The notes below the pieces were generated by a model, which was not told the origin of the DNA, made no database searches, and saw only the letters and a program-made list of their open reading frames with translations. The position numbers and the translations under genes are program-made. 64,000 nucleotides of DNA from Sphingobacteriales bacterium 44-61 (lineage in GTDB: Bacteria; Bacteroidota; Bacteroidia; Chitinophagales; Chitinophagaceae): NCBI GenBank assembly GCA_001898405.1, contig MKTW01000016.1, positions 62,001 to 126,000 on the forward strand, in the 5' to 3' direction. Below, in pieces: positions 9,709 to 32,507 of this stretch; position 1 is the first letter of the stretch, and the number at the start of each line of letters is the position of its first letter.

Positions 9709-10302
9709 ATGAAATCTTTTGATAGTCTTTCATTGCTGGAGCAATTGCAGGCTGATACCAGGCAGTTGATCGCCACTGCTACATTTTTAAAGAATGAAGA
9801 TCCCAGTATTTTGCTTGAGCAGCCGGGTGCCGGCAGATGGAGTGTGATACAGGTGCTGGAACACCTGAACAGCTACGGTGTATATTATTTACCGGCATTA
9901 AAAAATGGCCTGATGAATGGAGATGCTGCCGTGAATATTTTTCGTTCCGGCTGGCTGGGAAATTATTTTACACAGCTTATGCTGCCTAAAGAAGGCAGGG
10001 TAAAAAATAAAATGAAAGCGCCGAAAGACCATCGTCCGGCTTTTCATGTAGACGCGCAACCTGTGATAGAAACATTTTTGCAACAACAGCATCAGTTGCT
10101 GGAATTGCTGGAACTGGCCAAACAAAAGAATATAGGCATACGCATTCCTACTTCACTGACAAAACTGATCCGTTTAAAAGCAGGAGATACTTTCCGTTTC
10201 TTTATTGCACATGAGCAGAGGCATTTTGTGCAGATAGAAAACACTTTGGCAGAAGTGCGGAACACTACAGGTAAATTTCAAGTAGCCCATCAGGCAGGCT
10301 AA
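9709..10302 (+). CDS. DinB_2 superfamily protein
   Basis: 197-aa four-helix-bundle protein of the DinB/YfiT-like superfamily, which are putative metal-dependent thiol S-transferases or hydrolases. Candidate metal-binding histidines are in QVLEHLNSYG (near 50) and AHEQRHFVQIE (near 165); RWSVIQVLEHL is the typical first-helix signature. It is unrelated to the polymerase dinB. Its last 38 nt overlap the 3' end of rimM on the opposite strand. Role unknown; the upstream Crp/Fnr regulator may control it. Confidence 0.82.
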   Translation: MKSFDSLSLLEQLQADTRQLIATATFLKNEDPSILLEQPGAGRWSVIQVLEHLNSYGVYYLPALKNGLMNGDAAVNIFRSGWLGNYFTQLMLPKEGRVKNKMKAPKDHRPAFHVDAQPVIETFLQQQHQLLELLELAKQKNIGIRIPTSLTKLIRLKAGDTFRFFIAHEQRHFVQIENTLAEVRNTTGKFQVAHQAG

Positions 10303-19362: not shown

Positions 19363-19773
19363 ATGCTTTCAAAAAAATCACAGTACGCATTTAAGGCATT
19401 GGGTTACCTCACGGAGAAATATACGGAGGGGCCTATCCTGATCTCCGAGATCGCAAAGAAGAAAAAGATCCCATTGAAATTCCTGGAGAATATCCTGCTG
19501 GAATTAAAGAAAGCGGATATCCTGGACAGTAAGAAAGGGAAAGGAGGGGGATATTTTTTAAAGAAAAGCCCTGAAAAAGTGAAAGTGGCTACCATTATCC
19601 GGCTGGTGAATGGTCCTATCTCGATGATTCCCTGTGTGAGCCTGTATTTTTATGAGCGATGTAAAAACTGTAATGAAAAGCATTGTGGCCTCCATGAGAT
19701 GATGACGGAGGTACGTGATGCAACATTGAGTATCGTTGAGAACAGGACCCTTGTAGACCTGGTTGATTATTGA
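19363..19773 (+). CDS. Rrf2 family transcriptional regulator, candidate sulfur regulator
   Basis: 136-aa winged-helix regulator of the IscR/NsrR/CymR family. Helix-turn-helix at about 25-50 (ISEIAKKKKIPLKFLENILL), wing KKGKGGGYFLKK, and a cysteine set PC-VSLYFYER-CKNC-NEKHC (about residues 90-108) like the Fe-S-binding cysteines of IscR-type members. It is co-transcribed with OsmC and placed just before the peroxiredoxin-cys operon. An inverted repeat with matched promoter geometry precedes that operon and the TonB receptor, so I infer this protein controls them, sensing Fe-S status or cysteine. Confidence 0.9.
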   Translation: MLSKKSQYAFKALGYLTEKYTEGPILISEIAKKKKIPLKFLENILLELKKADILDSKKGKGGGYFLKKSPEKVKVATIIRLVNGPISMIPCVSLYFYERCKNCNEKHCGLHEMMTEVRDATLSIVENRTLVDLVDY

Positions 19774-19861: not shown

Positions 19862-19906
19862 ATTAGTCCACAAAGTTTGTGGAGTATTCATTTACCCTTA
19901 TTTTTG
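19862..19906 (+). promoter_or_regulatory. Operator and promoter of the peroxiredoxin-cys operon
   Basis: Operator ATTAGTCCA-N9-TGGAGTATT at 19862-19888. A TTTG (-33) at 19876-19879 lies inside the spacer, and exactly 19 nt after it comes the -7 box TATTTTTG at 19899-19906. The ATG follows at 19929. The same operator-promoter geometry recurs at 29241-29285. Confidence 0.75.
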
Positions 19907-19928
19907 TTAACCATTTAAAATTTGTTTT

Positions 19929-20564
19929 ATGTCATTACGTTTAGGGGATGCCGCCCCCAACTTTAAAGCGCAAACAACTGCAGGTGAAATCGATTTTTAT
20001 GAATACTTAGGCAATGGCTGGGGTGTTTTATTTTCACATCCTGCTGATTACACTCCCGTGTGTACTACTGAACTGGGTAAAACGGCCCTGTTGGGAAGTG
20101 AATTTGCCAGGCGCAATGTGAAAGTGCTGGCCGTAAGTGTTGACCCTCTCGATAAGCATGAAGGCTGGGTAAAAGATATCAATGAAACGCAGAACACGAC
20201 GGTTAATTTCCCTATCATAGCCGATGCAGACAGGAATGTGGCAACACTGTATGATATGATACATCCCAATGCATCAGCAACAGCAACTGTCCGTTCTTTA
20301 TTTGTTATAGGACCGGATAAAGCAGTAAAACTGATCATTACTTATCCTGCATCCACAGGACGGAACTTTACAGAAGTATTGCGTGTGATCGACTCATTGC
20401 AGCTTACAGCCAATCACAGTGTGGCAACTCCGGCCAACTGGACACATGGCGAAGACGTGATCATCGTTCCTTCCGTATCTACAGAAGATGCGATTAAAAA
20501 ATTCCCTAAAGGTGTTAAAGTGGTAAAACCTTACCTGCGCTATACACCTCAGCCTGATCTATAG
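19929..20564 (+). CDS. Peroxiredoxin (1-Cys, Prx6 type)
   Basis: 211-aa thiol peroxidase reducing peroxides. The peroxidatic Cys lies in HPADYTPVCTTELG (about residues 38-51); the Prx6-type layout is shown by the conserved VLAVSVDPLDKHEGWVKDI and a C-terminal domain after residue 165 (NWTHGEDVIIVP). No obvious resolving Cys is present. It is first in the sulfate-assimilation operon, 6 nt before cysH, which suggests protection during sulfur or redox stress. Confidence 0.93.
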   Translation: MSLRLGDAAPNFKAQTTAGEIDFYEYLGNGWGVLFSHPADYTPVCTTELGKTALLGSEFARRNVKVLAVSVDPLDKHEGWVKDINETQNTTVNFPIIADADRNVATLYDMIHPNASATATVRSLFVIGPDKAVKLIITYPASTGRNFTEVLRVIDSLQLTANHSVATPANWTHGEDVIIVPSVSTEDAIKKFPKGVKVVKPYLRYTPQPDL

Positions 20565-20570
20565 TAGTTG

Positions 20571-21287
20571 ATGTTGACGAAAGAACAGATACAAAATTTG
20601 GAAGAATATTCTTTGCCGGAGGCCATCGCGTTCATTGCTGCGTTGTTCCCCGGCAAAGTTGTTTTTTCATCATCCCTGGGGCAGGAAGACCAGGTGATCA
20701 CCGATGTGATCTTCCGGAATACCCTTCCTGTTAAGATCTTTACGATCGATACCGGCCGGTTGTTCAATGAAACATATGAACTGCTTGACCGGATAGAAGC
20801 CCGCTACAAAAACAGGATCCATGTTTATTTCCCTGAAGCAACCGATGTGGAAGAACTGGTAAATACAAAGGGAGTAAACAGTTTTTATGAATCAGTGGAC
20901 AACCGCAAAGCGTGTTGTCATATAAGAAAAGTAAAGCCGCTCAACAGAGCACTGGAAGGTGCTGCAGTCTGGATCACCGGCCTGCGGGCTGAGCAATCGG
21001 GCAACCGCCAGCAGATGCCAATGATCGAATGGATGGAAGACAGGCAACTGTATAAGTTCAACCCTTTGATCAGGTGGAGCTATGACGAAATGCTGGCCTA
21101 CCTGCGTGAGTTCAATGTGCCTTACAGCCCTTTACATGATAAAGGATTTGTCAGTATTGGTTGCGCTCCCTGCACCAGGGCCATTGAGCCCGGTGAAGAT
21201 GCACGCGCCGGCCGCTGGTGGTGGGAAACATCACATAAGGAATGCGGATTGCATTCCACAGCCGGTAACCTGTTAGTTAATAAATAG
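20571..21287 (+). CDS. cysH: Phosphoadenylyl/adenylyl-sulfate reductase (APS-reductase type)
   Basis: Reduces activated sulfate to sulfite with thioredoxin. PP-loop-like FSSSLGQEDQVI near the N-terminus; KACCHIRKVKPL and GCAPCTR supply the CC...CxxC cysteines of the [4Fe-4S] cluster of APS reductases; the catalytic Cys is in SHKECGLH near the C-terminus. With no APS kinase (cysC) nearby, I infer it uses APS. ATG at 20571 (a TTG immediately before it is not needed). 238 aa. Confidence 0.94.
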   Translation: MLTKEQIQNLEEYSLPEAIAFIAALFPGKVVFSSSLGQEDQVITDVIFRNTLPVKIFTIDTGRLFNETYELLDRIEARYKNRIHVYFPEATDVEELVNTKGVNSFYESVDNRKACCHIRKVKPLNRALEGAAVWITGLRAEQSGNRQQMPMIEWMEDRQLYKFNPLIRWSYDEMLAYLREFNVPYSPLHDKGFVSIGCAPCTRAIEPGEDARAGRWWWETSHKECGLHSTAGNLLVNK

Positions 21288-21301
21288 AAGAAATGTAGCG
21301 T

Positions 21302-22210
21302 ATGAGTAAGTATCATCTGGATTACCTGGAACAACTGGAAGCTGAGAGCATTCATATTTTCCGTGAAATAGCCGCACAGTTTGAAAAACCTGCTCTGCTG
21401 TTCAGCGGTGGGAAAGATTCCATTACACTGGTCCATCTTGCAAAAAAGGCATTTGCACCCGGACGGATACCTTTTCCGCTGGTCCATATTGACACAGGCC
21501 ATAATTTTCCTGAAGCGCTGGCTTACCGTGATCAGCTGGCGGAGGAGGTAAAAGCTGACCTCGTTGTGCGAAAAGTGGAAGACACGATAAAGCAAAGGGA
21601 TCTTACAGAACCCAAAGGGAAATTTGCCAGCCGCAACTGGCTTCAAACCTATACCCTGCTGGATACCATTGAGGAATTTGGCTTTGATGCCTGTATTGGT
21701 GGTGCAAGACGTGATGAAGAAAAAGCAAGGGCCAAGGAAAGGATCTTTTCCGTACGTGATGAATTCGGACAATGGAACCCTAAACTGCAACGGCCTGAAT
21801 TATGGGGCATCTACAATGGCCGGATCCATAAAGGAGAAAATGTGCGGGTGTTCCCGATCAGCAACTGGACAGAACTGGATATCTGGAATTATATCCGTAA
21901 AGAAAATATCGGCCTTCCATCCATTTACTTCTCACATGAGCGCGAAGTGATCGCTCATGAAGGTCAGTTGATCGCCGTGTCAGGCTTTATACAGGTGGAT
22001 GATACAGACACAGTCATAAAGAAGAGAGTACGTTACAGAACGGTAGGCGATATGACCTGTACCGCTGCTGTAGAATCAGCTGCAGCAACACTGGATGAAG
22101 TGATCAATGAAATTACTGCTGCCCGTATCAGCGAAAGAGGTGAAACAAGAATTGATGATAAGGTGACGGAAGCAGCAATGGAAGACAGGAAAAAGAATGG
22201 ATACTTCTAA
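21302..22210 (+). CDS. cysD: Sulfate adenylyltransferase subunit 2
   Basis: Catalytic ATP sulfurylase subunit that makes APS from sulfate and ATP, working with the GTPase CysN. PP-loop LLFSGGKDSITL (about 32-43), HIDTGHNFPEAL, GGARRDEEKARAKER, and WTELDIWNYI are standard. 302 aa, family length. 14 nt after cysH and 10 nt before cysN. Confidence 0.97.
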   Translation: MSKYHLDYLEQLEAESIHIFREIAAQFEKPALLFSGGKDSITLVHLAKKAFAPGRIPFPLVHIDTGHNFPEALAYRDQLAEEVKADLVVRKVEDTIKQRDLTEPKGKFASRNWLQTYTLLDTIEEFGFDACIGGARRDEEKARAKERIFSVRDEFGQWNPKLQRPELWGIYNGRIHKGENVRVFPISNWTELDIWNYIRKENIGLPSIYFSHEREVIAHEGQLIAVSGFIQVDDTDTVIKKRVRYRTVGDMTCTAAVESAAATLDEVINEITAARISERGETRIDDKVTEAAMEDRKKNGYF

Positions 22211-22220
22211 AAATTAAAAC

Positions 22221-23462
22221 ATGGATCTATTAAGGTTTATTACAGCAGGTAGTGTAGATGATGGGAAGAGTACCCTTATTGGCCGTCTGCTGTACGACAG
22301 CAAGAATATATTGGTTGACCAACTGGAAGCGCTGGAAAAGCAAACAAGGAATAAAGAAGCTGGCGTGATAGACCTGGCTTTGCTGACCGATGGATTGCGT
22401 GCAGAGCGTGAGCAGGGAATTACAATTGATGTGGCTTACCGGTATTTTTCAACACCTCAAAGGAAATTCATTATTGCCGATGCGCCTGGCCATGTGCAGT
22501 ATACGCGCAATATGATCACAGGAGCTTCCAATGCCAATCTTATTATTATCCTGGTAGATGCCCGGCAGGGAGTGGTAGAGCAAACCCGTCGCCACTCCAT
22601 TATTGCTTCACTTCTCAAAATACCACATGTGGTAGTAGCAGTGAATAAAATGGACCTGGTTGAATACTCACAGGATGTATACAATAATATATTGATCGAT
22701 TATGCGGAAGTAGCAAAGCAGCTCGGATTAAAGGATGTGACCTATATTCCCATCAGTGCATTGAATGGAGATAATATTGTTGACAGATCATCGGTCATTG
22801 ACTGGTATGAAGGAAAGCCTTTATTGCAGTTGCTCGAAGAAGTAGAGATCGGCCGGGATATCAATCATGCAGATGCCCGTTTCCAGGTGCAACTGGTGAT
22901 CCGCCCGCAAACAACCGATCTGCATGATTACCGTGGTTATGCAGGAAAAGTGGCCAGTGGTGTGTACAGGAAAGGTGATAAAGTAACTGTTTTGCCGGCA
23001 AATATTGAAACAAGCATCAGCAAGTTGGAAATAGGCGGCGAAGAGAAAGAAGAAGTGTTTGCCCCGCAAAGCGTGATCATTCACCTGGCAGATGATATTG
23101 ATATCAGCCGTGGTGATTCAATAGTGAAAACAGATGACCAACCACAGGTTGCCAATGAACTGGAAGTATTGCTATGCTGGCTCGATGAAAAGCCTTTACA
23201 ACCAGGCAATAAATATTACCTGCAACACAATAGCCGTTTGCTGAGGGCTGTAGTGAAACAGGTGGAATATAAACTGGATGTAAACACCTTGCAACAGCTG
23301 CCGGTGGAAGCAGGTGTGAAACTGAATGAAGTGGTGAAAGCGACCATTAAAACAGCTTCACCGCTGGTGTATGACAGCTATGCCAAGAACCAGGCTGATG
23401 GCAGTGCAATATTGGTGGATGAAACAAGCAATAACACAGTAGCAGCGGTATTGCTGCAATAA
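22221..23462 (+). CDS. cysN: Sulfate adenylyltransferase subunit 1 (GTPase)
   Basis: EF-Tu-like GTPase that couples GTP hydrolysis to APS synthesis by CysD. G1 AGSVDDGKSTLIG, switch region EREQGITIDVAYRYF, G3 DAPGHVQYTRNM, G4 VNKMDL, then two beta-barrel domains (about 215-410). 413 aa and no fused APS kinase domain at the C-terminus, consistent with an APS-reductase pathway. Confidence 0.96.
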   Translation: MDLLRFITAGSVDDGKSTLIGRLLYDSKNILVDQLEALEKQTRNKEAGVIDLALLTDGLRAEREQGITIDVAYRYFSTPQRKFIIADAPGHVQYTRNMITGASNANLIIILVDARQGVVEQTRRHSIIASLLKIPHVVVAVNKMDLVEYSQDVYNNILIDYAEVAKQLGLKDVTYIPISALNGDNIVDRSSVIDWYEGKPLLQLLEEVEIGRDINHADARFQVQLVIRPQTTDLHDYRGYAGKVASGVYRKGDKVTVLPANIETSISKLEIGGEEKEEVFAPQSVIIHLADDIDISRGDSIVKTDDQPQVANELEVLLCWLDEKPLQPGNKYYLQHNSRLLRAVVKQVEYKLDVNTLQQLPVEAGVKLNEVVKATIKTASPLVYDSYAKNQADGSAILVDETSNNTVAAVLLQ

Positions 23463-23475
23463 ATTTTTTTACCTA

Positions 23476-23502
23476 ATAAATCTACTAAATCGGTAGACTA
23501 TG
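23476..23502. promoter_or_regulatory. Operator-like inverted repeat before cobA
   Basis: ATAAATCTA-N9-TAGACTATG matches ATTAGTCTA-N9-TAGACTAAT at 7 of 9 positions in each half and overlaps the cobA ATG. There is no -33/-7 pair in the geometry seen at the other two sites, so it may be an internal operator or a decayed copy. Confidence 0.4.
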
Positions 23503-24318
23503 AGCCTACAACGTATCAATGGGAAAGTGATCCTGGCAGGTGCCGGACCGGGTGATCCGGAACTTATTTCTGTGAAAGCAGTCCGCTGGTTGCAAAAAGC
23601 GGATATTGTTTTAACTGACCGGCTTGTGAGCCATGAAATACTGAACGAGTATGTAAGCCCGCAGGCAGAGATCATCTGCGTGGGCAAGCAGGGCCGTTAT
23701 GGACTTTCCACTCCGCAGAAAAAGATCAATCAATTGATGATCGAGCATAGCAGGGCGGGAAAAACGGTAGTACGCCTGAAAGGCGGTGATGTATCCGTGT
23801 TTGCCAATATGCTGGATGAATTGCAGGCATTAGTTGAAAATGGGATCTCTTATGAGATCATCCCGGGCATTTCTGCAGCTTTTGGTGCAGCAGCCTATGC
23901 CGGCATTCCCCTTACTGCCCGCAACTACGCCAATGCTGTCCGTTTTCTTACTTACTATAAAACCGATCTGCTGTCGCCGGAATACTGGAATGAACTGGCT
24001 GCAACGGATGATACGCTGGTATTCTATATGTCATCTGGCACATTGGATGATATTGTAGAGAACCTCAAAAGCAGCGGCATCCGCTCAGATAAATTCCTTG
24101 CCGTGGTGGAACAAGCCACAACGCGCCTGCAAAACGTGCATATCTCCAATATTTACCAGCATAAACTGGTATTTGAAGGAAAGGAATTTGCCTCCCCTTC
24201 CTTGCTGATCATTGGTAAAGTGGTGGCATTGCACGAACAGTTTGCCTGGATACGCAACAGCAACAGCCAGGAACAATATTTTGAACCAGTGGAATCGCTG
24301 AGGAAGCAAGCTGTATAA
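23500..24318 (+). CDS. cobA: Uroporphyrinogen-III C-methyltransferase
   Basis: SAM-dependent enzyme making precorrin-2, the first step from uroporphyrinogen III to siroheme, the cofactor of sulfite reductase. Motifs: GAGPGDPELISVKA, VLTDRLVS, GKQGRYGLSTPQ, VVRLKGGDVSVF and the ITRE-like PGISAAFGAAAYAGIPLT. 272 aa. It sits inside the cys operon, and the remaining siroheme steps are encoded two genes downstream. Confidence 0.94.
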   Translation: MSLQRINGKVILAGAGPGDPELISVKAVRWLQKADIVLTDRLVSHEILNEYVSPQAEIICVGKQGRYGLSTPQKKINQLMIEHSRAGKTVVRLKGGDVSVFANMLDELQALVENGISYEIIPGISAAFGAAAYAGIPLTARNYANAVRFLTYYKTDLLSPEYWNELAATDDTLVFYMSSGTLDDIVENLKSSGIRSDKFLAVVEQATTRLQNVHISNIYQHKLVFEGKEFASPSLLIIGKVVALHEQFAWIRNSNSQEQYFEPVESLRKQAV

Positions 24319-24332
24319 ATCAAAACCATTGT

Positions 24333-26012
24333 ATGCTCCCTGAATCAAAACTGAAATCTTTTTTAGACCTTGTTCACTCCTCTACAAAGGAAGAGCTGAT
24401 CTGGATCAATGGTTATTTGAATGGTCTTGTAGCTAACGGCAACACTGAAATTCCTGCAACGACTACGAAAAGGATCAGTCTTGTATATGGAACAGAAACA
24501 GGAAATGCCAAAAAACTGGCAGCACAACTGGCGGCAGTAGCCAAGAAAAAAGGTGTGAATGCAAAACTGACCGGGCTTGACCAGTACCGGCTGGCTGATC
24601 TTGCAAAAGAAGAATACCTGTTTGTGGTGATCAGTACACAGGGTGAGGGCGAGCCTCCCCTGCCTGCAAAAAAGTTTTACGAATACATTCATGCCAATCA
24701 ATTGCAATTGCCTGATCTGAAATACAGCGTGCTGGCATTAGGTGATACATCTTATCCCCTGTATTGCAAGACCGGTGAAGATGTAGATCAGCAATTGAAC
24801 AGATTTGGTGCCAGGCGTGTGGTGCCATTACAGAAATGTGATGTGGACTATGAAGAAGATGCCATGCAATGGTTTGAAAAAGTGCTGGCATTGTTGGAAA
24901 AGCAAACAACGCCTCCGGCCAGCACACCGGTTACGAAAAAGAAAACAGAAAAGAAATTTTATAACGGTATTATACAGGCTAATGTTAATTTGAATGACCG
25001 TGGTTCCAATAAACAAACCTATCATATTGAAATAGGTACGGATGAGGAGATAGAATACGAACCGGGTGATACTATTGGCATTGTTCCGCGCAACAGACCG
25101 GAAGTGGTTGACCGTATCATTTCCCTTACAGGCATTGATCCCGAATTGGAGATAGAGACAGCCAGGGCAAAAGCACCAGTGCGGGAATTGCTGGCCGGTA
25201 ACCTGAGCATTTGCTATTTACTTACCAGTACGATTAAAAAATATGCTTCTCTCACAGCACAGGAAATTCCTGATACAAGAATGGACCTGGTTGACCTGCT
25301 GCGCATCTATCCCGTAAAAGATGCGGAACAGTTCAAAGATGTGTTACAGCTATTGATACCAATAGCCCCCCGTTTATATTCAGTTGCTTCATCTCCTGAA
25401 GGGCATGGAAGAAATGAGGTGCATATCACCGTTGCGCGTGACCGTTTCCTGGCCCAGGATGAACAACGCTATGGGCTTTGCAGTGAGTTCCTTGGCGATC
25501 AGCCTGTTGGTTCCACTCTTACTTTTTATGTGCACAAGGATAAGAACTTCAAACTGCCCGCAGCGGAAAAAGATATTATCATGATTGGGCCGGGTACGGG
25601 TGTAGCACCTTTCCGTGCTTTCCTGGCAGAACGTGATGCAACAGGTGCAACAGGAAGAAACTGGTTCTTTTTTGGGGAGCAGCATTTTGTAACGGATTTT
25701 CTTTACCAGGTGGAGATGCAGAATTATGTGCAAACAGGTGTGCTCACTCAATTGGACCTTGCATTCTCGAGAGATCAAACAGAGAAGATCTATGTGCAAC
25801 ATCGTATGCAGCAGCAAGCCGCTGAATTGTATAAGTGGATTGAAGGCGGCGCCTCTGTTTATATCAGCGGAACAAAAGATCCGATGAGCAGGGACGTGGA
25901 AACTGCGTTGCTGAAGATCATCAGTGAAGAAGGAGGCTTAAATGCCGATGCTTCAATAAAATATCTCGAACAACTGAAAAAAGAAGGTAGATACAGTAAA
26001 GACGTTTATTAA
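24333..26012 (+). CDS. cysJ: Sulfite reductase [NADPH] flavoprotein subunit
   Basis: Transfers electrons from NADPH via FAD and FMN to the hemoprotein CysI. Flavodoxin domain about 47-190 (LVYGTETGNAKKLA, STQGEGEPPLPAK, LGDTSYPLYC), FAD-binding domain about 205-410 (RLYSVASSPEGHGR), and NADPH domain (MIGPGTGVAPFRAFLAER, FFFGEQHFVTDFLYQ, YISGTKDPM) ending in KDVY with a terminal aromatic. 559 aa, close to family length. Confidence 0.94.
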   Translation: MLPESKLKSFLDLVHSSTKEELIWINGYLNGLVANGNTEIPATTTKRISLVYGTETGNAKKLAAQLAAVAKKKGVNAKLTGLDQYRLADLAKEEYLFVVISTQGEGEPPLPAKKFYEYIHANQLQLPDLKYSVLALGDTSYPLYCKTGEDVDQQLNRFGARRVVPLQKCDVDYEEDAMQWFEKVLALLEKQTTPPASTPVTKKKTEKKFYNGIIQANVNLNDRGSNKQTYHIEIGTDEEIEYEPGDTIGIVPRNRPEVVDRIISLTGIDPELEIETARAKAPVRELLAGNLSICYLLTSTIKKYASLTAQEIPDTRMDLVDLLRIYPVKDAEQFKDVLQLLIPIAPRLYSVASSPEGHGRNEVHITVARDRFLAQDEQRYGLCSEFLGDQPVGSTLTFYVHKDKNFKLPAAEKDIIMIGPGTGVAPFRAFLAERDATGATGRNWFFFGEQHFVTDFLYQVEMQNYVQTGVLTQLDLAFSRDQTEKIYVQHRMQQQAAELYKWIEGGASVYISGTKDPMSRDVETALLKIISEEGGLNADASIKYLEQLKKEGRYSKDVY

Positions 26013-26027
26013 GCATAAATCATAAAA

Positions 26028-27698
26028 ATGAGCGAAGCAAAGAACCTGTCGTCTGTAGAAAGAATAAAAATGGCCAGTGATGGACTGCGGGGCACATTAA
26101 AGCAAAGCCTGCAGGATAATATTACCGGTGCATTGCGCGAAGATGATCAGTCGCTCATAAAATTCCATGGCCTGTATCAGCAGGACGACCGTGACAGGCG
26201 TGAAGAAAGGAGCACCAAAAAACTGGAATGGTTGTATTCCTATATGATCCGTCTCAGGCTGCCCGGTGGCTTTTTAAAACCTGAACAATGGATAGGATTA
26301 CACCATGTTGCAGGAGAACATTCAACCGGCACTATCAAGATCACGACCCGGCAAACGGTGCAATTGCATGGAGTGCTGAAATCTTCCATTAAACCAACGA
26401 TCAAAACATTCAACACCCTGTCATTGGATTCTATCGCCACCTGCGGTGATGTGAACAGGAATGTAATGTGCAGTGCACATCCGGGTCAGTCTGCTTTGCA
26501 TGAAGAGATCTTCAGGTATGCTGATAAGTTAAGCCAGATGGCCCTGCCCAAAACGAGGGCTTATTATGAAATATGGTTGGACAAAGAACAACTGGCAGAA
26601 AAAAAAGAAGATGACCCATTATACCAGGACCGTTACCTGCCAAGAAAATTCAAGATCGCTATTGCCATCCCACCCAACAATGACGTGGATGTGTTCACCA
26701 ATGATGTAGGCCTGATCGCGATCATTGAGAACAATCAGTTGAAAGGATTCAATATTGCAGCAGGTGGCGGCATGGGCGCTACGCATGGTAATCCCCAAAC
26801 CTATCCGCGGTTGGGCAGCTTGCTGGGATTTGTTGATTCGGAAGAGAAATTGTTGAAAGCAGTGTACGGGATCATGACCCTGCAGCGTGATCATGGCAAC
26901 CGCTCCGACAGGAAGCTTGCCCGTTTGAAATATACAATTGACAGATTCGGTGTACCGGCATTTATCGAAGAATTGGAAAAACGGATAGGATTTCAGCTGG
27001 AACCTGCAAAACCTTATACGTTTACCGAAAGAAAAGACCATTATGGCTGGGAACGAAATCACCAGGGCAGATGGTATTATACTGTGTTTGTAGAGAACGG
27101 GCGTGTGCTGGATGATGAAAAGCTTCCGCTTAAGACCGCATTGTTCGAGATCGCTAAAACCGGGAAAGCGAATTTCCGATTCACGGGTAGTCAGAATGTG
27201 ATATTGTCAGACATTGAAGAAAAAGATAAACCGGAGATAGAAGAATTGCTGAGCCGGTTTGGTATTATCGGGCACACAGAACGTTCGGGGAATGTCAGGA
27301 AGAACTCCATCGCTTGTGTGGCTTTCAACACCTGCCCTTTAGCGCTGGCAGAAGCCCAGCGTTACCTCCCTGTTCTCATTTCAAAGATTGAACCGATCCT
27401 GTACAAGTATGCTTTACAGGATGAGGAGATCACCGTTAGGATGACGGGCTGCCCCAATGGCTGTGGCCGTTCTTCTGCAGCGGAAATCGGTTTTATCGGC
27501 ACTTCTTATGGGCAATATAACCTGCATATTGGTGGCGACAGGTTGGGTGAGCGGTTGAATACAAAGTATAAGGAGAACCTTGGTGAAGATGAGATACTGC
27601 AAAGTCTGGATGAATTGCTGGGTGTGTATAAGACAGAAAGAAAACAGGGAGAAACATTTGGTGATTTTTCCTATCGTAAATGGATCAGTAAGAACTAA
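26028..27698 (+). CDS. cysI: Sulfite reductase hemoprotein subunit
   Basis: Six-electron reduction of sulfite to sulfide using siroheme and a [4Fe-4S] cluster. Cluster cysteines are in ACVAFNTCPLALAEA (CX5C) and MTGCPNGCGRSS (CX3C) near residues 428-480; two ferredoxin-like half-domains precede each. HHVAGEHSTGTIKITTRQTV and GDVNRNVMCS are typical siroheme-pocket segments. 556 aa. It follows cysJ by 15 nt. Confidence 0.95.
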   Translation: MSEAKNLSSVERIKMASDGLRGTLKQSLQDNITGALREDDQSLIKFHGLYQQDDRDRREERSTKKLEWLYSYMIRLRLPGGFLKPEQWIGLHHVAGEHSTGTIKITTRQTVQLHGVLKSSIKPTIKTFNTLSLDSIATCGDVNRNVMCSAHPGQSALHEEIFRYADKLSQMALPKTRAYYEIWLDKEQLAEKKEDDPLYQDRYLPRKFKIAIAIPPNNDVDVFTNDVGLIAIIENNQLKGFNIAAGGGMGATHGNPQTYPRLGSLLGFVDSEEKLLKAVYGIMTLQRDHGNRSDRKLARLKYTIDRFGVPAFIEELEKRIGFQLEPAKPYTFTERKDHYGWERNHQGRWYYTVFVENGRVLDDEKLPLKTALFEIAKTGKANFRFTGSQNVILSDIEEKDKPEIEELLSRFGIIGHTERSGNVRKNSIACVAFNTCPLALAEAQRYLPVLISKIEPILYKYALQDEEITVRMTGCPNGCGRSSAAEIGFIGTSYGQYNLHIGGDRLGERLNTKYKENLGEDEILQSLDELLGVYKTERKQGETFGDFSYRKWISKN

Positions 27699-27706
27699 AC
27701 TTAGCT

Positions 27707-29215
27707 ATGGTGAAAAATGTGCAGGTGATAACTACAGCAGATAAGCCTAAACAGGAGGTCAATGACCTGTTCCCTGTTTTTTTGAAACTGGAACATTTAA
27801 GGGTATTGATCATAGGCGGAGGGAAAGTTGGGCTGGAAAAATTGCATGCCATTATCCATAATTCACCTGCAACCGGTGTTACATTGGTGGCTGAAGAAAT
27901 AAGTCATGCCATTAAAACGCTGGCGGAGCATCATTCCAATATCCAATGGCAGGAGCGTTCTTTTGAAGAAACAGATCTGGATGGACAGGACCTGGTGATC
28001 GTTGCAATTGATGATAAAGAAGTAAGCAGGGAGATCCATGCTGCTGCTAAAAGCAGGGATAAACTGGTGAATGTGGCTGATACGCCTGATCTCTGCGATT
28101 TTTACCTGAGCTCTATTGTAAGAAAGGGTAACCTGAAGATAGCGATCTCTACCAATGGGAAATCGCCGACTGCTGCAAAACGCATCAAGGAAGTGTTGCA
28201 GGATGCGTTGCCGGGTGAGCTGGATGAAGTGATCAATAATCTTCACCAGGTACGCAACAAGCTGAATGGAAATTTTGAATATAAAGTAAAAAAACTGAAT
28301 GCACTCACCAAAGTGCTGGTGGAGCCAGATAATTTAGGAGAACGCCGCTGGCGAAAGATTGCCAGCTATTCTGTAGGTATTTTTGCTTTGATGCTGATCG
28401 GGCATTTTATTTTTTCATATATCCCCTTAAAAGTTATTGCAGATGAAACGGTATCATGGTATAAGGGGCTTGATAAAAATTTCCATTGGATGTTGCTGGC
28501 AGGATTCCTGGCGCAGATGGTGGATGGGGCAACGAGTATGGGTTATGGTGTTACGAGTGCCATAGTGCTGATGTCGGCCAATGTAAGCCCTGCTGCGATC
28601 AGTGGCAGCATTCATACAGCGGAAATGTTTGCAAGCGGCGCTTCAGGATATAGTCATTATAAATTCGGGAATGTAAATAAGAAATTGTTCAAGGTGCTGC
28701 TGATCCCCGGAATTATTGGCGCAGTGTTGGGGGCTGTTTTGCTGGTAAAGTTTGGCGAATCGCATATCACCTATATCCGGCCGATCATGGCGGCTTATAC
28801 ATTGGTACTGGGAGTACGGATCTTTATCAATGCTTTCCGTAAGGCAACCGTCAAAAAGAAATTCAAAAGGTATGGATTGCTGGCAGGTGCAGGTGGGTTC
28901 TTTGATTCATTTGGCGGCGGAGGCTGGGGCCCGATCGTTACAGCTACACTGATCACCAAGGGGCGTACACCCCGGTATGTAGTGGGCTCGGTAAGCCTTA
29001 CAGAATTCTTCGTAACCCTGGCAAGTGCTTTTACTTTCTTTACACTTATTGGCTTGCAACACTGGCAGGTGATACTGGCCCTGATCATTGGTGGACTTAT
29101 TGCAGCTCCAATTGCTGCAAGGTTGAATGGAAAGCTGCCAAGAAAAGCTTCTTTTATCCTGCTGGGCATTATCGTTATTGCCTGGAGTTTAAGGATATTG
29201 ATCAAGGCTGTTTAG
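27707..29215 (+). CDS. Fusion: precorrin-2 dehydrogenase/ferrochelatase + TSUP transporter
   Basis: 502 aa with two unrelated halves. Residues about 20-210 match the CysG N-terminal/Met8/SirC module: Rossmann LRVLIIGGGKVGLEKL, VNVADTPDLCDFYL, KIAISTNGKSPTAAKRIKE, which turns precorrin-2 into siroheme. Residues about 222-502 form a TauE/SafE (TSUP) permease: TM helices, LAGFLAQMVDGATSMGYGV, and a second repeat GGFFDSFGGGGWGPIVTATL. TSUP members move sulfite, sulfonates or sulfate. I infer siroheme synthesis plus sulfur-oxyanion transport in one polypeptide. The reading frame is uninterrupted. Confidence 0.9.
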   Translation: MVKNVQVITTADKPKQEVNDLFPVFLKLEHLRVLIIGGGKVGLEKLHAIIHNSPATGVTLVAEEISHAIKTLAEHHSNIQWQERSFEETDLDGQDLVIVAIDDKEVSREIHAAAKSRDKLVNVADTPDLCDFYLSSIVRKGNLKIAISTNGKSPTAAKRIKEVLQDALPGELDEVINNLHQVRNKLNGNFEYKVKKLNALTKVLVEPDNLGERRWRKIASYSVGIFALMLIGHFIFSYIPLKVIADETVSWYKGLDKNFHWMLLAGFLAQMVDGATSMGYGVTSAIVLMSANVSPAAISGSIHTAEMFASGASGYSHYKFGNVNKKLFKVLLIPGIIGAVLGAVLLVKFGESHITYIRPIMAAYTLVLGVRIFINAFRKATVKKKFKRYGLLAGAGGFFDSFGGGGWGPIVTATLITKGRTPRYVVGSVSLTEFFVTLASAFTFFTLIGLQHWQVILALIIGGLIAAPIAARLNGKLPRKASFILLGIIVIAWSLRILIKAV

Positions 29216-29240
29216 TATGGAATATAAAAGAAGAAAAAAT

Positions 29241-29285
29241 ATTAGTCTATAATAATTGTAGACTAATAGAAATAATATATGTTTG
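29241..29285 (+). promoter_or_regulatory. Operator and promoter before the TonB receptor
   Basis: Perfect inverted repeat ATTAGTCTA-N9-TAGACTAAT at 29241-29267. A TTG (-33) at 29256-29258 lies in the spacer; exactly 19 nt later the -7 box TATGTTTG is at 29278-29285. The layout is identical to 19862-19906, down to the 10-nt gap between operator end and -7 box. Confidence 0.75.
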
Positions 29286-29292
29286 CAAACAC

Positions 29293-29316
29293 AGGACATT
29301 CAACTGTCCTTTTTTT
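29293..29316 (+). terminator. Hairpin with T-run upstream of the TonB receptor
   Basis: AGGACA - 6-nt loop - TGTCCT followed by seven T. It would end the cys operon, but it also lies only a few bases after the predicted start of the 29278 promoter, so it could attenuate the TonB-receptor transcript. Confidence 0.7.
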
Positions 29317-29323
29317 AAACCTG

Positions 29324-29350
29324 AATAGTATACTAAAATAGTAGACTAAT
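29324..29350. promoter_or_regulatory. Second operator-like repeat before the TonB receptor
   Basis: AATAGTATA-N9-TAGACTAAT: the right half is identical to the perfect site at 29241, the left half matches 7 of 9. No -33/-7 pair follows at the expected spacing. It is 21 nt before the receptor ATG. Confidence 0.5.
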
Positions 29351-29371: not shown

Positions 29372-32356
29372 ATGGGCCGCCAAGCAAATACAACGCTTCT
29401 CAAGGGAGTATCTTCAATCAGGCAAAAGCTTTTTGCCCGTGTTCTGTTCCTCTCTATCCCCCTGTCCTGTACCTGTATCTTTTCCCTTGCGCAGGATGCC
29501 AGCCTGATCGAGATTTCCGGCACTGTTACCGATCAGTTGAACAAGCAACCATTGGCTGATGTAAGCGTACAGGTTAAAGGAACCGTAACAGGTACTATTA
29601 CCAATAAGGATGGGGCTTTCAAATTGCGTACTAAATCCCGGTTGCCTTTTACGCTTACTTTTTCATCTGTTGGTTTTAAAGAGCAGCAACTGGAAGTGAA
29701 CAATCTCGGTGCCAACCTCGAAGTGGCTTTGGTAACCCAAACCATTTTAGGCAATGAAGTAGTGGTAACCGCCTCACGGGTGCAGGAAAGCCTGCTCAAA
29801 TCACCCGTGGCTATAGAAAAGCTAAGTCTCCGTGCGATCAAAGAATCACCCGCACCTACTTTTTATGATGCGCTGGAAAATCTGAAAGGCGTGCAATTGA
29901 CTACTTCAAGCATAACGTTCAAGATCCCCAACACAAGAGGTTTTAATATACCTAATAATTTCCGCTTTGTACAGCTCAATGATGGGGTTGATGTGCAAGC
30001 TGCAACCCTGGGTGTGCCGCTGGGTAATTCCATTGGCCCTTCTGAACTGGATATTGAAAGCGTGGAGATCACCCCGGGAGCGGCTTCCGCTTTATATGGA
30101 ATGAATGCCATCAATGGGCTGGCTAACCTTATTACAAAGAACCCGTTCAAATACCAGGGGCTGAGTGTGTACCAGCGTACAGGTGTAAACCATATTGGTG
30201 AAGGCTCTGCGGGGCAGGGTGCGAAGATACTTACAGAATCTGCAGTCCGCTATGCAAAAGCATTCAACAACAAATTTGCTTTCAAGGTCAATCTTAGTTA
30301 TCTGCGCGGTACCGATTGGAGATCCGATACCAGGACAGACCAGAACCCCAATAACCTCAACACAGCCAATCCTGCCTACCCTGAATTGAACGGCCCGGAA
30401 AATAACCCGGCTTACGATGCCTGGAATAAATATGCGGATGATGCAGGCAGCAATGCTGTTTCCATCAGCGGCATAACTTATAAGAACACACCTAATAATA
30501 CATTTCTTGTACGCCGTACAGGCTATTGGGAAAAAGACCTGGTTGATCCAACTGTCACCAATATTAAAGCAGACGCAGCTTTACATTATCGGTTTTCAAA
30601 AAATGCTGAACTGTCTTATGCGTATCGCTTTGGCCAGATGGATGGGATATTTCAAAGAGGTAATAAGATCCAATTAGATAACCTGCGTGTACAAAACCAT
30701 AAACTGGAACTGAAAGGCGATAATTACCTGGTCAGAACTTACGTGTCTATCGAGAACAGCGGCGATTCTTACAACCTGAAACCGCTGGCAGATAATCTTG
30801 ATCTTACTCATCGCTCCAATGCCAGTTGGCGTGATGCATTCAAATCCTCTCTTCAAAGCACGCTTGGTGCTGATGGCAACAACAGTGATCTCGCAACCGC
30901 CATGCGCATAGCCCGTGCTGCTGCGGATGCCGGGCGTGTGGAACCCGGCACTCCCGGGTTTGATGCTTTAAAGAGAACAATCATCGGCATTAATAACTGG
31001 GACCATAAGAATGCTGTAGCTGGCGCTCCTGAAACCGGTGGTGCATGGCTTCGGCAGTTGAGCCGTACTTACCATATAGATGCACAATGGGACCTTACCC
31101 GCTATGTGAAATGGTTCAACCTCCTGGTGGGTGGCGATCTGAGAATATATGAAGTGATCCCGGACGGAAATAATTTTGTTGATTTCTCCAGGCCGGTAGC
31201 TGAACGCAATAAACCTGTAATGGTTGATGGCAAAGTTCCGGACTCATTGGATTTTGGAAAGAATGTGTATTATAAAAAATATGGCGGCTTTGTGCAGGGT
31301 GCCAAAAACTTTTTTGATGAGAAGCTGAAAGTATCGGTTTCATTACGCCTTGATCAGAATCCTGAATTCAGTCCCAAACTTAATCCACGGATTGCGCTGG
31401 TATACACTGCTGCGCAAAGACATAATTTCCGCGTTTCCTTCCAGAACGGATTCCGTTTTCCCGCCATCTTTGAAGCCATCTCTTTTGTGAACAATGGTAA
31501 TGTAAGACGTGTAGGTGGTCTTTCTTATATCAATGAAGGATTGGGCTATCTTGATAATTCCTATACCCGCAGTTCGGTAGAAACGTTCAATGCTGCTGTG
31601 AATGCAGATGTAAGGAATGGGATGGCTGCCAACGCGGCTGCATTAAAGAACAGGAGCCTGCTTGAAGTAACGGCTTTATCTGAAACAAGACCAGAGCGGA
31701 TCAATTCATTTGAGGCAGGCTATAAAAGCATCCTGCTCGATAACCGCTTGTTGCTTGATTTTGATGCATACATTAATCAATACGATGGATTCCTCGGGCA
31801 GGTGGAAGTGTATGTTCCTGAAGCAGACTCTGTGCAGGTGGGAACAGACCGGGCAGTGACCGATATGCTGGATGCCAACCGCTCTAAACAAACGCGCTAT
31901 CGGGTATACACCAATGCAAAGAATAAGTATACTAACTATGGAGCTGCGTTTGGCGTGACCTATAATTTCGGTAAAACATTTTCCATCTCCGGCAATGTCA
32001 ATTACAATGCGATCTCAAAGAATAAACAGAAGGATGTTTTTGTAACGGGATTTAATACGCCGGAATGGTTCACCAACCTGTCGTTTGGCAACAGGGAAGT
32101 GGTAAAGAATCTGGGGTTCAATATTGTCTGGAGATGGCAGGACGCATTTTACTGGGAAAGTCCATTAGCTAACGGTAATATCTCTGCCTACAATACGATT
32201 GATGCGCAGGTGACCTACAGGATACCTGCGCTGTATTCGACTATTAAAGTGGGAGGAAGCAATGTATTGAACAACCGTTATATACAATATGCAGCTGGTC
32301 CTACGATCGGAGCGCTGTATTATGCTGCGATCACTGTAGACGGGTTGTTGAAATAG
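29372..32356 (+). CDS. TonB-dependent outer-membrane receptor
   Basis: 994-aa outer-membrane beta-barrel transporter. N-terminal signal peptide about 1-41 (hydrophobic FLSIPLSCTCIFSL ending LAQ), a carboxypeptidase-like regulatory domain about 48-120 (ISGTVTDQLNKQPLADVSVQ), a TonB-box-like NEVVVTAS, then a plug (VEITPGAASALYGMNAINGL) and a barrel ending in a short aromatic/hydrophobic strand. No SusD partner follows. Shared operators with the cys operon suggest uptake of a sulfur-containing compound, though the ligand cannot be read from sequence. Confidence 0.92.
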   Translation: MGRQANTTLLKGVSSIRQKLFARVLFLSIPLSCTCIFSLAQDASLIEISGTVTDQLNKQPLADVSVQVKGTVTGTITNKDGAFKLRTKSRLPFTLTFSSVGFKEQQLEVNNLGANLEVALVTQTILGNEVVVTASRVQESLLKSPVAIEKLSLRAIKESPAPTFYDALENLKGVQLTTSSITFKIPNTRGFNIPNNFRFVQLNDGVDVQAATLGVPLGNSIGPSELDIESVEITPGAASALYGMNAINGLANLITKNPFKYQGLSVYQRTGVNHIGEGSAGQGAKILTESAVRYAKAFNNKFAFKVNLSYLRGTDWRSDTRTDQNPNNLNTANPAYPELNGPENNPAYDAWNKYADDAGSNAVSISGITYKNTPNNTFLVRRTGYWEKDLVDPTVTNIKADAALHYRFSKNAELSYAYRFGQMDGIFQRGNKIQLDNLRVQNHKLELKGDNYLVRTYVSIENSGDSYNLKPLADNLDLTHRSNASWRDAFKSSLQSTLGADGNNSDLATAMRIARAAADAGRVEPGTPGFDALKRTIIGINNWDHKNAVAGAPETGGAWLRQLSRTYHIDAQWDLTRYVKWFNLLVGGDLRIYEVIPDGNNFVDFSRPVAERNKPVMVDGKVPDSLDFGKNVYYKKYGGFVQGAKNFFDEKLKVSVSLRLDQNPEFSPKLNPRIALVYTAAQRHNFRVSFQNGFRFPAIFEAISFVNNGNVRRVGGLSYINEGLGYLDNSYTRSSVETFNAAVNADVRNGMAANAAALKNRSLLEVTALSETRPERINSFEAGYKSILLDNRLLLDFDAYINQYDGFLGQVEVYVPEADSVQVGTDRAVTDMLDANRSKQTRYRVYTNAKNKYTNYGAAFGVTYNFGKTFSISGNVNYNAISKNKQKDVFVTGFNTPEWFTNLSFGNREVVKNLGFNIVWRWQDAFYWESPLANGNISAYNTIDAQVTYRIPALYSTIKVGGSNVLNNRYIQYAAGPTIGALYYAAITVDGLLK

Positions 32357-32436: not shown

Positions 32437-32507
32437 AGCCGTGTGGCCGAGTGGTGAGGTACAGGTTTGCAAAACCTTTAACGTCGGTTCGAATCCGACC
32501 ACGGCGT
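32437..32507 (+). tRNA. tRNA-Cys (GCA)
   Basis: Cloverleaf: acceptor 32437-32443 with 32500-32506, D-arm starting at 32446, anticodon loop TTGCAAA at 32467-32473 (anticodon GCA, 32469-32471), T-stem GTCGG / CCGAC around TTCGAAT, discriminator T at 32507. Position 1 (A) faces G at 72 and the top anticodon-stem pair is C/T, both non-Watson-Crick. No CCA is encoded. It sits between sulfur-uptake and sulfhydrylase genes. Confidence 0.92.

Follow-up and report, generated by a model that had tools for sequence, protein, structure and literature searches.

The 64,000-nucleotide stretch of Sphingobacteriales bacterium 44-61 considered here (contig MKTW01000016.1, positions 62,001 to 126,000; hereafter the window) carries a gene for an Rrf2-family regulator, a cys operon for sulfate assimilation and a gene for a TonB-dependent receptor, together with four copies of an inverted repeat. 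Regulator and repeat very probably form a switch that acts on the sulfate-using genes and the outer-membrane uptake gene together. The features, with repeat scores from the 31-bp matrix described below, are as follows.

19363 to 19773, + strand: Rrf2-family regulator, 136 amino acids, with C91-x8-C100-x2-C103-x4-C108-x2-H111
19862 to 19888, + strand: operator 1 (core 19865-19885), covering the -33 TTG at 19877-19879; score 22.8; kept in relatives
19899 to 19906, + strand: -7 box TATTTTTG for the promoter of the cys operon, 13 nt past the operator 1 core
19929 to 29215, + strand: cys operon, with genes for peroxiredoxin, cysH, cysD, cysN, cobA, cysJ, cysI and a siroheme synthase N-domain fused to TauE/SafE
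23476 to 23502, + strand: operator 2 (core 23479-23499), halves matching at 7/9 and 7/9 positions, one mismatch in the core; score 20.8
29241 to 29267, + strand: operator 3 (core 29244-29264), a perfect repeat covering the -33 TTG at 29256-29258; score 22.1
29278 to 29285, + strand: -7 box TATGTTTG of the receptor promoter, at the same offset as that of operator 1
29293 to 29317, + strand: terminator-like hairpin with a U run, starting about 3 nt downstream of where receptor transcription is expected to begin
29324 to 29350, + strand: operator 4 (core 29327-29347), 83 bp past operator 3; score 26.3
29372 to 32356, + strand: TonB-dependent receptor, 994 amino acids (PF13715, PF07715, PF00593)

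Domain and family matches bear out the gene content, an operon plus a TonB receptor, that was given by a first-pass annotation of this DNA, and all four inverted repeats that it placed here, the weaker copies included, can be read directly: ATTAGTCCA-CAAAGTTTG-TGGAGTATT at 19862-19888, ATTAGTCTA-TAATAATTG-TAGACTAAT at 29241-29267 and, at 29324-29350, AATAGTATA-CTAAAATAG-TAGACTAAT, whose halves match at 7/9 and 9/9 positions. While the repeats stand, their definition as nine-nucleotide half-sites around a nine-nucleotide spacer does not, as whole-genome searches sharpened the pattern to AGTCYAC-N7-GTRGACT. With the original pattern at up to three mismatches, the window holds three matches versus 0.25 expected; because at least three were also reached in 2 of 100 shuffles, the window by itself is only moderately unusual. 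Across the whole genome this pattern occurs at nine places, four of them with 0-2 mismatches (three in the window locus and one on contig C17, matrix score 2.4). A control pattern read backward gave 39 places versus nine, and 502 versus 189 for the core at three mismatches, and since the control outnumbers the true pattern, loose matches carry no meaning. This control, which differs in composition, was dropped as a baseline and genomes without a close Rrf2 were used instead. The core with at most one mismatch is found at six places in the 5.58-Mb genome, four of which lie inside this 9.5-kb locus. A 31-bp matrix, built from 44 distinct sites at the 80 best Rrf2 loci described below and excluding the window sites, scores the four window copies at 20.8-26.3, the next best place in the 64 kb at 0.6 and the best place among 30 window shuffles at 10.6.

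The two promoters are as the first-pass annotation described them, with the TTG at 19877-19879 preceding TATTTTTG and that at 29256-29258 preceding TATGTTTG. Among 50 distinct sites, a TAnnTTTG box (at least 5/6 matches) lies at offset 13 after the core in 46, the next best offset accounting for 6, and 48 have a TTG at core index 11 or 12, with the mirror CAA seen in 2. TAnnTTTG is given as the -7 consensus of Bacteroidota promoters in PMC9723704. The operator thus overlies the -33 element in a constant register, so RNA polymerase should be shut out by a bound protein, an arrangement that fits repression.

Conservation was assessed in a close-Rrf2 set consisting of the best 80 of 541 confirmed loci in species genomes (Rrf2 65-95% identical, 1.5 Mb in total), which derive from Chitinophagaceae, other Chitinophagales, unplaced metagenome bins, Chryseobacterium and Kaistella. 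At up to two mismatches, the N7 spacer gives 73 matches in these loci, and each of 15 other spacers (0 to 15) gives 0-7; in Rrf2-DNA complexes, a central 7 bp is reported to receive no base-specific contacts (PMC9338935). By the matrix, 54 of the 55 loci in which rrf2 is followed by a sulfur gene (within 2 kb) carry an operator no more than 500 nt downstream of rrf2, and none of the 25 others does; this is an internal contrast in that the matrix was trained on these loci, while the spacer test is independent of it. The next recognised gene in the 54 operator loci encodes a peroxiredoxin in 10, CysH in 19 and a TauE-type protein in 25. In more distant loci (Rrf2 47-56% identical), a degenerate form, YCTAY-N7-RTAGR, gives 15 matches in 11 of 23 loci, all no more than 450 nt after rrf2, compared with one match for 15 other spacers together.

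The sites also track the regulator across genomes. Among 59 relatives, 36 belong to the same family, and a close Rrf2 (at least 57% identical) is present in 21 of these 36. Within the family, cysH is found in all 21 genomes with a close Rrf2 and in 4/15 without (p 2e-6), and two or more sites with at most one mismatch are carried by 14/21 and 1/15 genomes, respectively (p 4e-4); the genomes are related and shared ancestry makes these Fisher p-values too small, but the direction is consistent. In total, 79 such sites are found in the 21 genomes with a close Rrf2 and 14 in the 38 others. The first-pass annotation had made its reading depend on the motif recurring upstream of orthologous cys operons and had proposed a matrix scan of relatives. 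With the 31-bp matrix the motif does recur, beside rrf2 in the 54/55 versus 0/25 split and, in 16 of the 21 close-Rrf2 genomes, within 1.5 kb upstream of cysH, where the best score is higher than in any of 40 shuffles. Of the four cysH genomes lacking a close Rrf2, three (G005, G015 and G027) have no site there and one (G024) does. More broadly, an Rrf2 match at 1e-30 is present in 36 of 198 phylum genomes, 25 of which have cysH; at class level there are 34 Rrf2 matches, 23 with cysH, and in 19 of the 23 rrf2 and cysH are no more than 6 kb apart. The apparent lack of cysH in the other 11 of 34 is partly a threshold effect, because in L262, L263 and L266 rrf2 is followed by a diverged protein with a PAPS-reductase domain (Pfam).

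Taken together, this comparison strongly supports an Rrf2 operator-promoter module over sulfur genes, which we regard as highly likely, and with it the earlier reading of an Rrf2 sulfur regulon. In the proposed model, the protein encoded at 19363-19773 would be the local sulfur regulator, which as a dimer would bind AGTCYAC-N7-GTRGACT. The right half of this site lies over the -33 TTG in both the cys and the receptor promoter, and the bound dimer would keep RNA polymerase off. Upon sulfur shortage Rrf2 would leave the DNA, allowing a joint rise in sulfate reduction, siroheme synthesis and TonB-receptor uptake; the cysteine supply would most likely be reported by the state of an iron-sulfur (Fe-S) cluster on the four cysteines. 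If so, sulfur control acquires a named protein, a 27-bp site and a list of targets across a large group of environmental bacteria, where the control system becomes testable, including in cultured Chryseobacterium or Chitinophagaceae.

Several observations weigh against so simple a scheme. Two of the window operators depart from the canonical arrangement: operator 2 abuts the cobA ATG (23500) and has no -7 box in the canonical place, and operator 4 is placed between the receptor promoter and the receptor ATG without canonical promoter geometry; in L263, L269 and L270 an operator is located just past the -7 box instead. At L095 a peroxiredoxin gene adjoins rrf2 and the operator is missing. No operator is found at L172 either, where the Rrf2 reading is incomplete and the sulfur genes are further off. 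In 24 of the 80 close Rrf2 loci there is no sulfur gene in the stretch examined, some being short contigs, and Rrf2 may do other work at such loci. The degenerate operator is absent from 12 of the 23 distant loci, and in 5 of the 21 close-Rrf2 genomes (G007, G009, G010, G025 and G026) no site upstream of cysH exceeds the shuffles; in two of these, G009 and G010, a second Rrf2 (54 and 51% identical, respectively) belongs to the sulfur cluster itself. Finally, G024 has sites, yet no Rrf2 was found at E 0.001 in its 300-contig assembly.

The window protein clearly belongs to the Rrf2 superfamily (PF02082, 113.2 bits, cut-off 30; TIGR00738, 113.4 bits, cut-off 73.3). Compared by eye with the wing motif Lx3Gx6Gx2GGx2L (PMC9338935), it has L48, G59, G62-G63 and L66, and D52 in place of the first glycine; a consensus built from 39 sequences keeps the glycine there. 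Of 75 distinct relatives, 74 retain all four cysteines and the other is truncated; H111 is retained in 68. Distant Rrf2 loci also show the cysteine pattern, in most of the printed sequences with one additional residue ahead of the final cysteine. The window protein scores below every NCBIfam equivalog cut-off shown (IscR, CymR, suf_reg, RirA and NsrR), including 76.6 bits versus 207.55 for IscR (TIGR02010), 67.2 versus 195 for CymR (NF047409) and 34.9 versus 182 for NsrR (NF008240). The closest solved relatives by sequence are T. potens IscR 4cic, 7zpn and CymR 2y75, and the predicted model is nearest in fold to CymR 2y75 (TM 0.81). The protein combines traits of two kinds of known regulators. 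Like CymR of Bacillus and Staphylococcus, which controls sulfur assimilation genes, it is associated with operators before such genes; it differs from CymR in its four conserved cysteines and in the TonB receptors of its predicted regulon. Its cysteines lie in the same stretch as those of the cluster-binding regulators IscR, RisR, RirA and NsrR, and the last Cys-x2-His resembles the arrangement in IscR. Those regulators, however, govern Fe-S, iron or NO genes, and rrf2 in the window precedes a cys operon rather than lying in an isc or suf operon. The window protein has four cysteines, compared with three conserved cysteines in most of the Rrf2 family (PMC9973013).

An Fe-S cluster on the four conserved cysteines is the likely sensor, although zinc may take its place; the structure model (pLDDT 83.9 overall, 59-67 in the cysteine stretch) is uninformative on a bound cluster. 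The alternative that best survives keeps the same operator and repressor and replaces the cluster signal with a partner protein, in the manner of CysK and CymR, or with a direct thiol or persulfide reaction. It draws on the fold match, given that CymR binds no such cluster and acts together with a thiol-lyase (PMC9338935), and on the OsmC and peroxiredoxin genes flanking rrf2. Against this, the near-invariance of the four cysteines and a spacing like that of cluster ligands argue for a cluster, and we consider a cluster-free signal unlikely. Either way, targets like those of CymR coupled with cysteines like those of IscR can show how Rrf2 proteins change signals.

That Rrf2 reads the site as an activator, or through looping between operator pairs rather than as a simple repressor, appears distinctly less likely still. 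Operators recur in pairs about 80-83 bp apart at different genes and in different families: the distance is 83 bp at the receptor (29241/29324), and 80 bp both in the same-genus genome G001 (L212, 9704/9784) and at three flavobacterial loci (L263, L269 and L270). Such pairs may reflect looping or cooperative binding, and sites off the -33 element exist (23476 and 29324). Nevertheless, 48 of 50 sites cover the -33 TTG at one fixed position, as expected for a blocker.

The window Rrf2 would be the wrong protein if a real operator were read by another regulator, for instance another Rrf2 of the same genome or an unlinked factor. The sites of G024 would suit another regulator, and the genome that holds the window does have two more Rrf2 genes. 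Both, however, have separate contexts, one after sufS/sufE/FeS_assembly_P-type genes and the other beside a COX1-family gene. The sites follow close rrf2 relatives (79 versus 14, as above), and G005 and G027, which have cysH and another Rrf2 (27-30% identical), show no operator before cysH. We therefore give this alternative only a slim chance. Chance, or mere resemblance to promoter sequence, as the 2/100 shuffles might have suggested, is refuted by the spacer tests, the matrix gap and the 54/55 versus 0/25 split and deserves practically no credence.

The candidate regulon was surveyed mainly through sites with at most one mismatch in relatives, with one representative per gene cluster annotated. 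Individual sites are doubtful, because genomes without a close Rrf2 carry about 0.4 each and several matches lie inside genes. TonB receptors (BLAST) make up 16/69 genes adjoining sites versus 7/297 others (p 4e-8, again made too small by shared ancestry), which gives TonB receptors of uncertain cargo a strong lead, namely that they may import sulfur compounds. Further genes with sites encode a NirA-like reductase (5 loci), PAPS reductase (3), PhyH (3), Cupin_8 (8) and ResA-like proteins (3). In five genomes a fatty-acid-hydroxylase-family gene has a site, located 9-15 nt before the ATG in four, including this genome (L055 4817, L187 4010, L189 4031 and L211 4017), and 223 nt before it in the fifth; one would not expect a lipid enzyme to be controlled by sulfur. 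Operators also lie within cys operons before internal genes (cobA or cysD), the gene varying by species (window 23479, L060 6913 and L114 15130). Type 2A encapsulins have a role in sulfur storage, and in G035 (L183 6204) the operator found between an SrpI-type (2A) encapsulin gene and cysM is consistent with such storage. The cysteine synthase at L183 was rejected as a cysteate synthase (188.6 versus a cut-off of 600) and is above the CysM cut-off. A sulfonolipid link was likewise discarded, as the aminotransferase beside the second Chryseobacterium site is a glycine C-acetyltransferase (NCBIfam 675.8 bits, cut-off 493) and not a cysteate acyltransferase. The GntP/FAD-oxidase site (L057) was set aside with a matrix score of 10.4, at the shuffle limit. 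The OAH sulfhydrylase-metX-homoserine dehydrogenase operon of this genome (L058, on contig C20) is unproven as a target: its site, seen in this genome only, has two mismatches and scores 7.3, below the best window shuffle, and lies between the operon and an upstream SAM riboswitch (77.8 bits, L058 4737-4853).

A broader proposal, advanced tentatively as possible rather than probable, is that the four-cysteine, cluster-binding Rrf2 clade is the ancestral sulfur-status sensor of its Bacteroidota class. One operator type would then jointly set sulfate reduction, TonB-dependent uptake of organic sulfur, sulfur-freeing oxygenases, encapsulin sulfur storage and a membrane-lipid hydroxylase, with the cysteine supply read from the state of the Fe-S cluster. 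The same physiological job, control of the cys genes, is performed in enterobacteria by CysB, a LysR-type protein with an unrelated site. A search of the open-access PMC literature, which leaves subscription journals and RegPrecise outside its scope, found no description of such a Bacteroidota Rrf2 sulfur regulator.

Between the two receptor operators, the hairpin is statistically weak, with 13 such hairpins in the region versus 13.0 in shuffles. In G001 a hairpin of other letters, followed by a U run, occupies the same place between two operators (L212, about 9753-9773). A tRNA gene (32437-32507) lies directly 3' of the TonB receptor in the window, and G001 (L212 9704-9994) has no receptor gene between its operator pair and its tRNA, while the operators, the hairpin and the flanking genes are kept.

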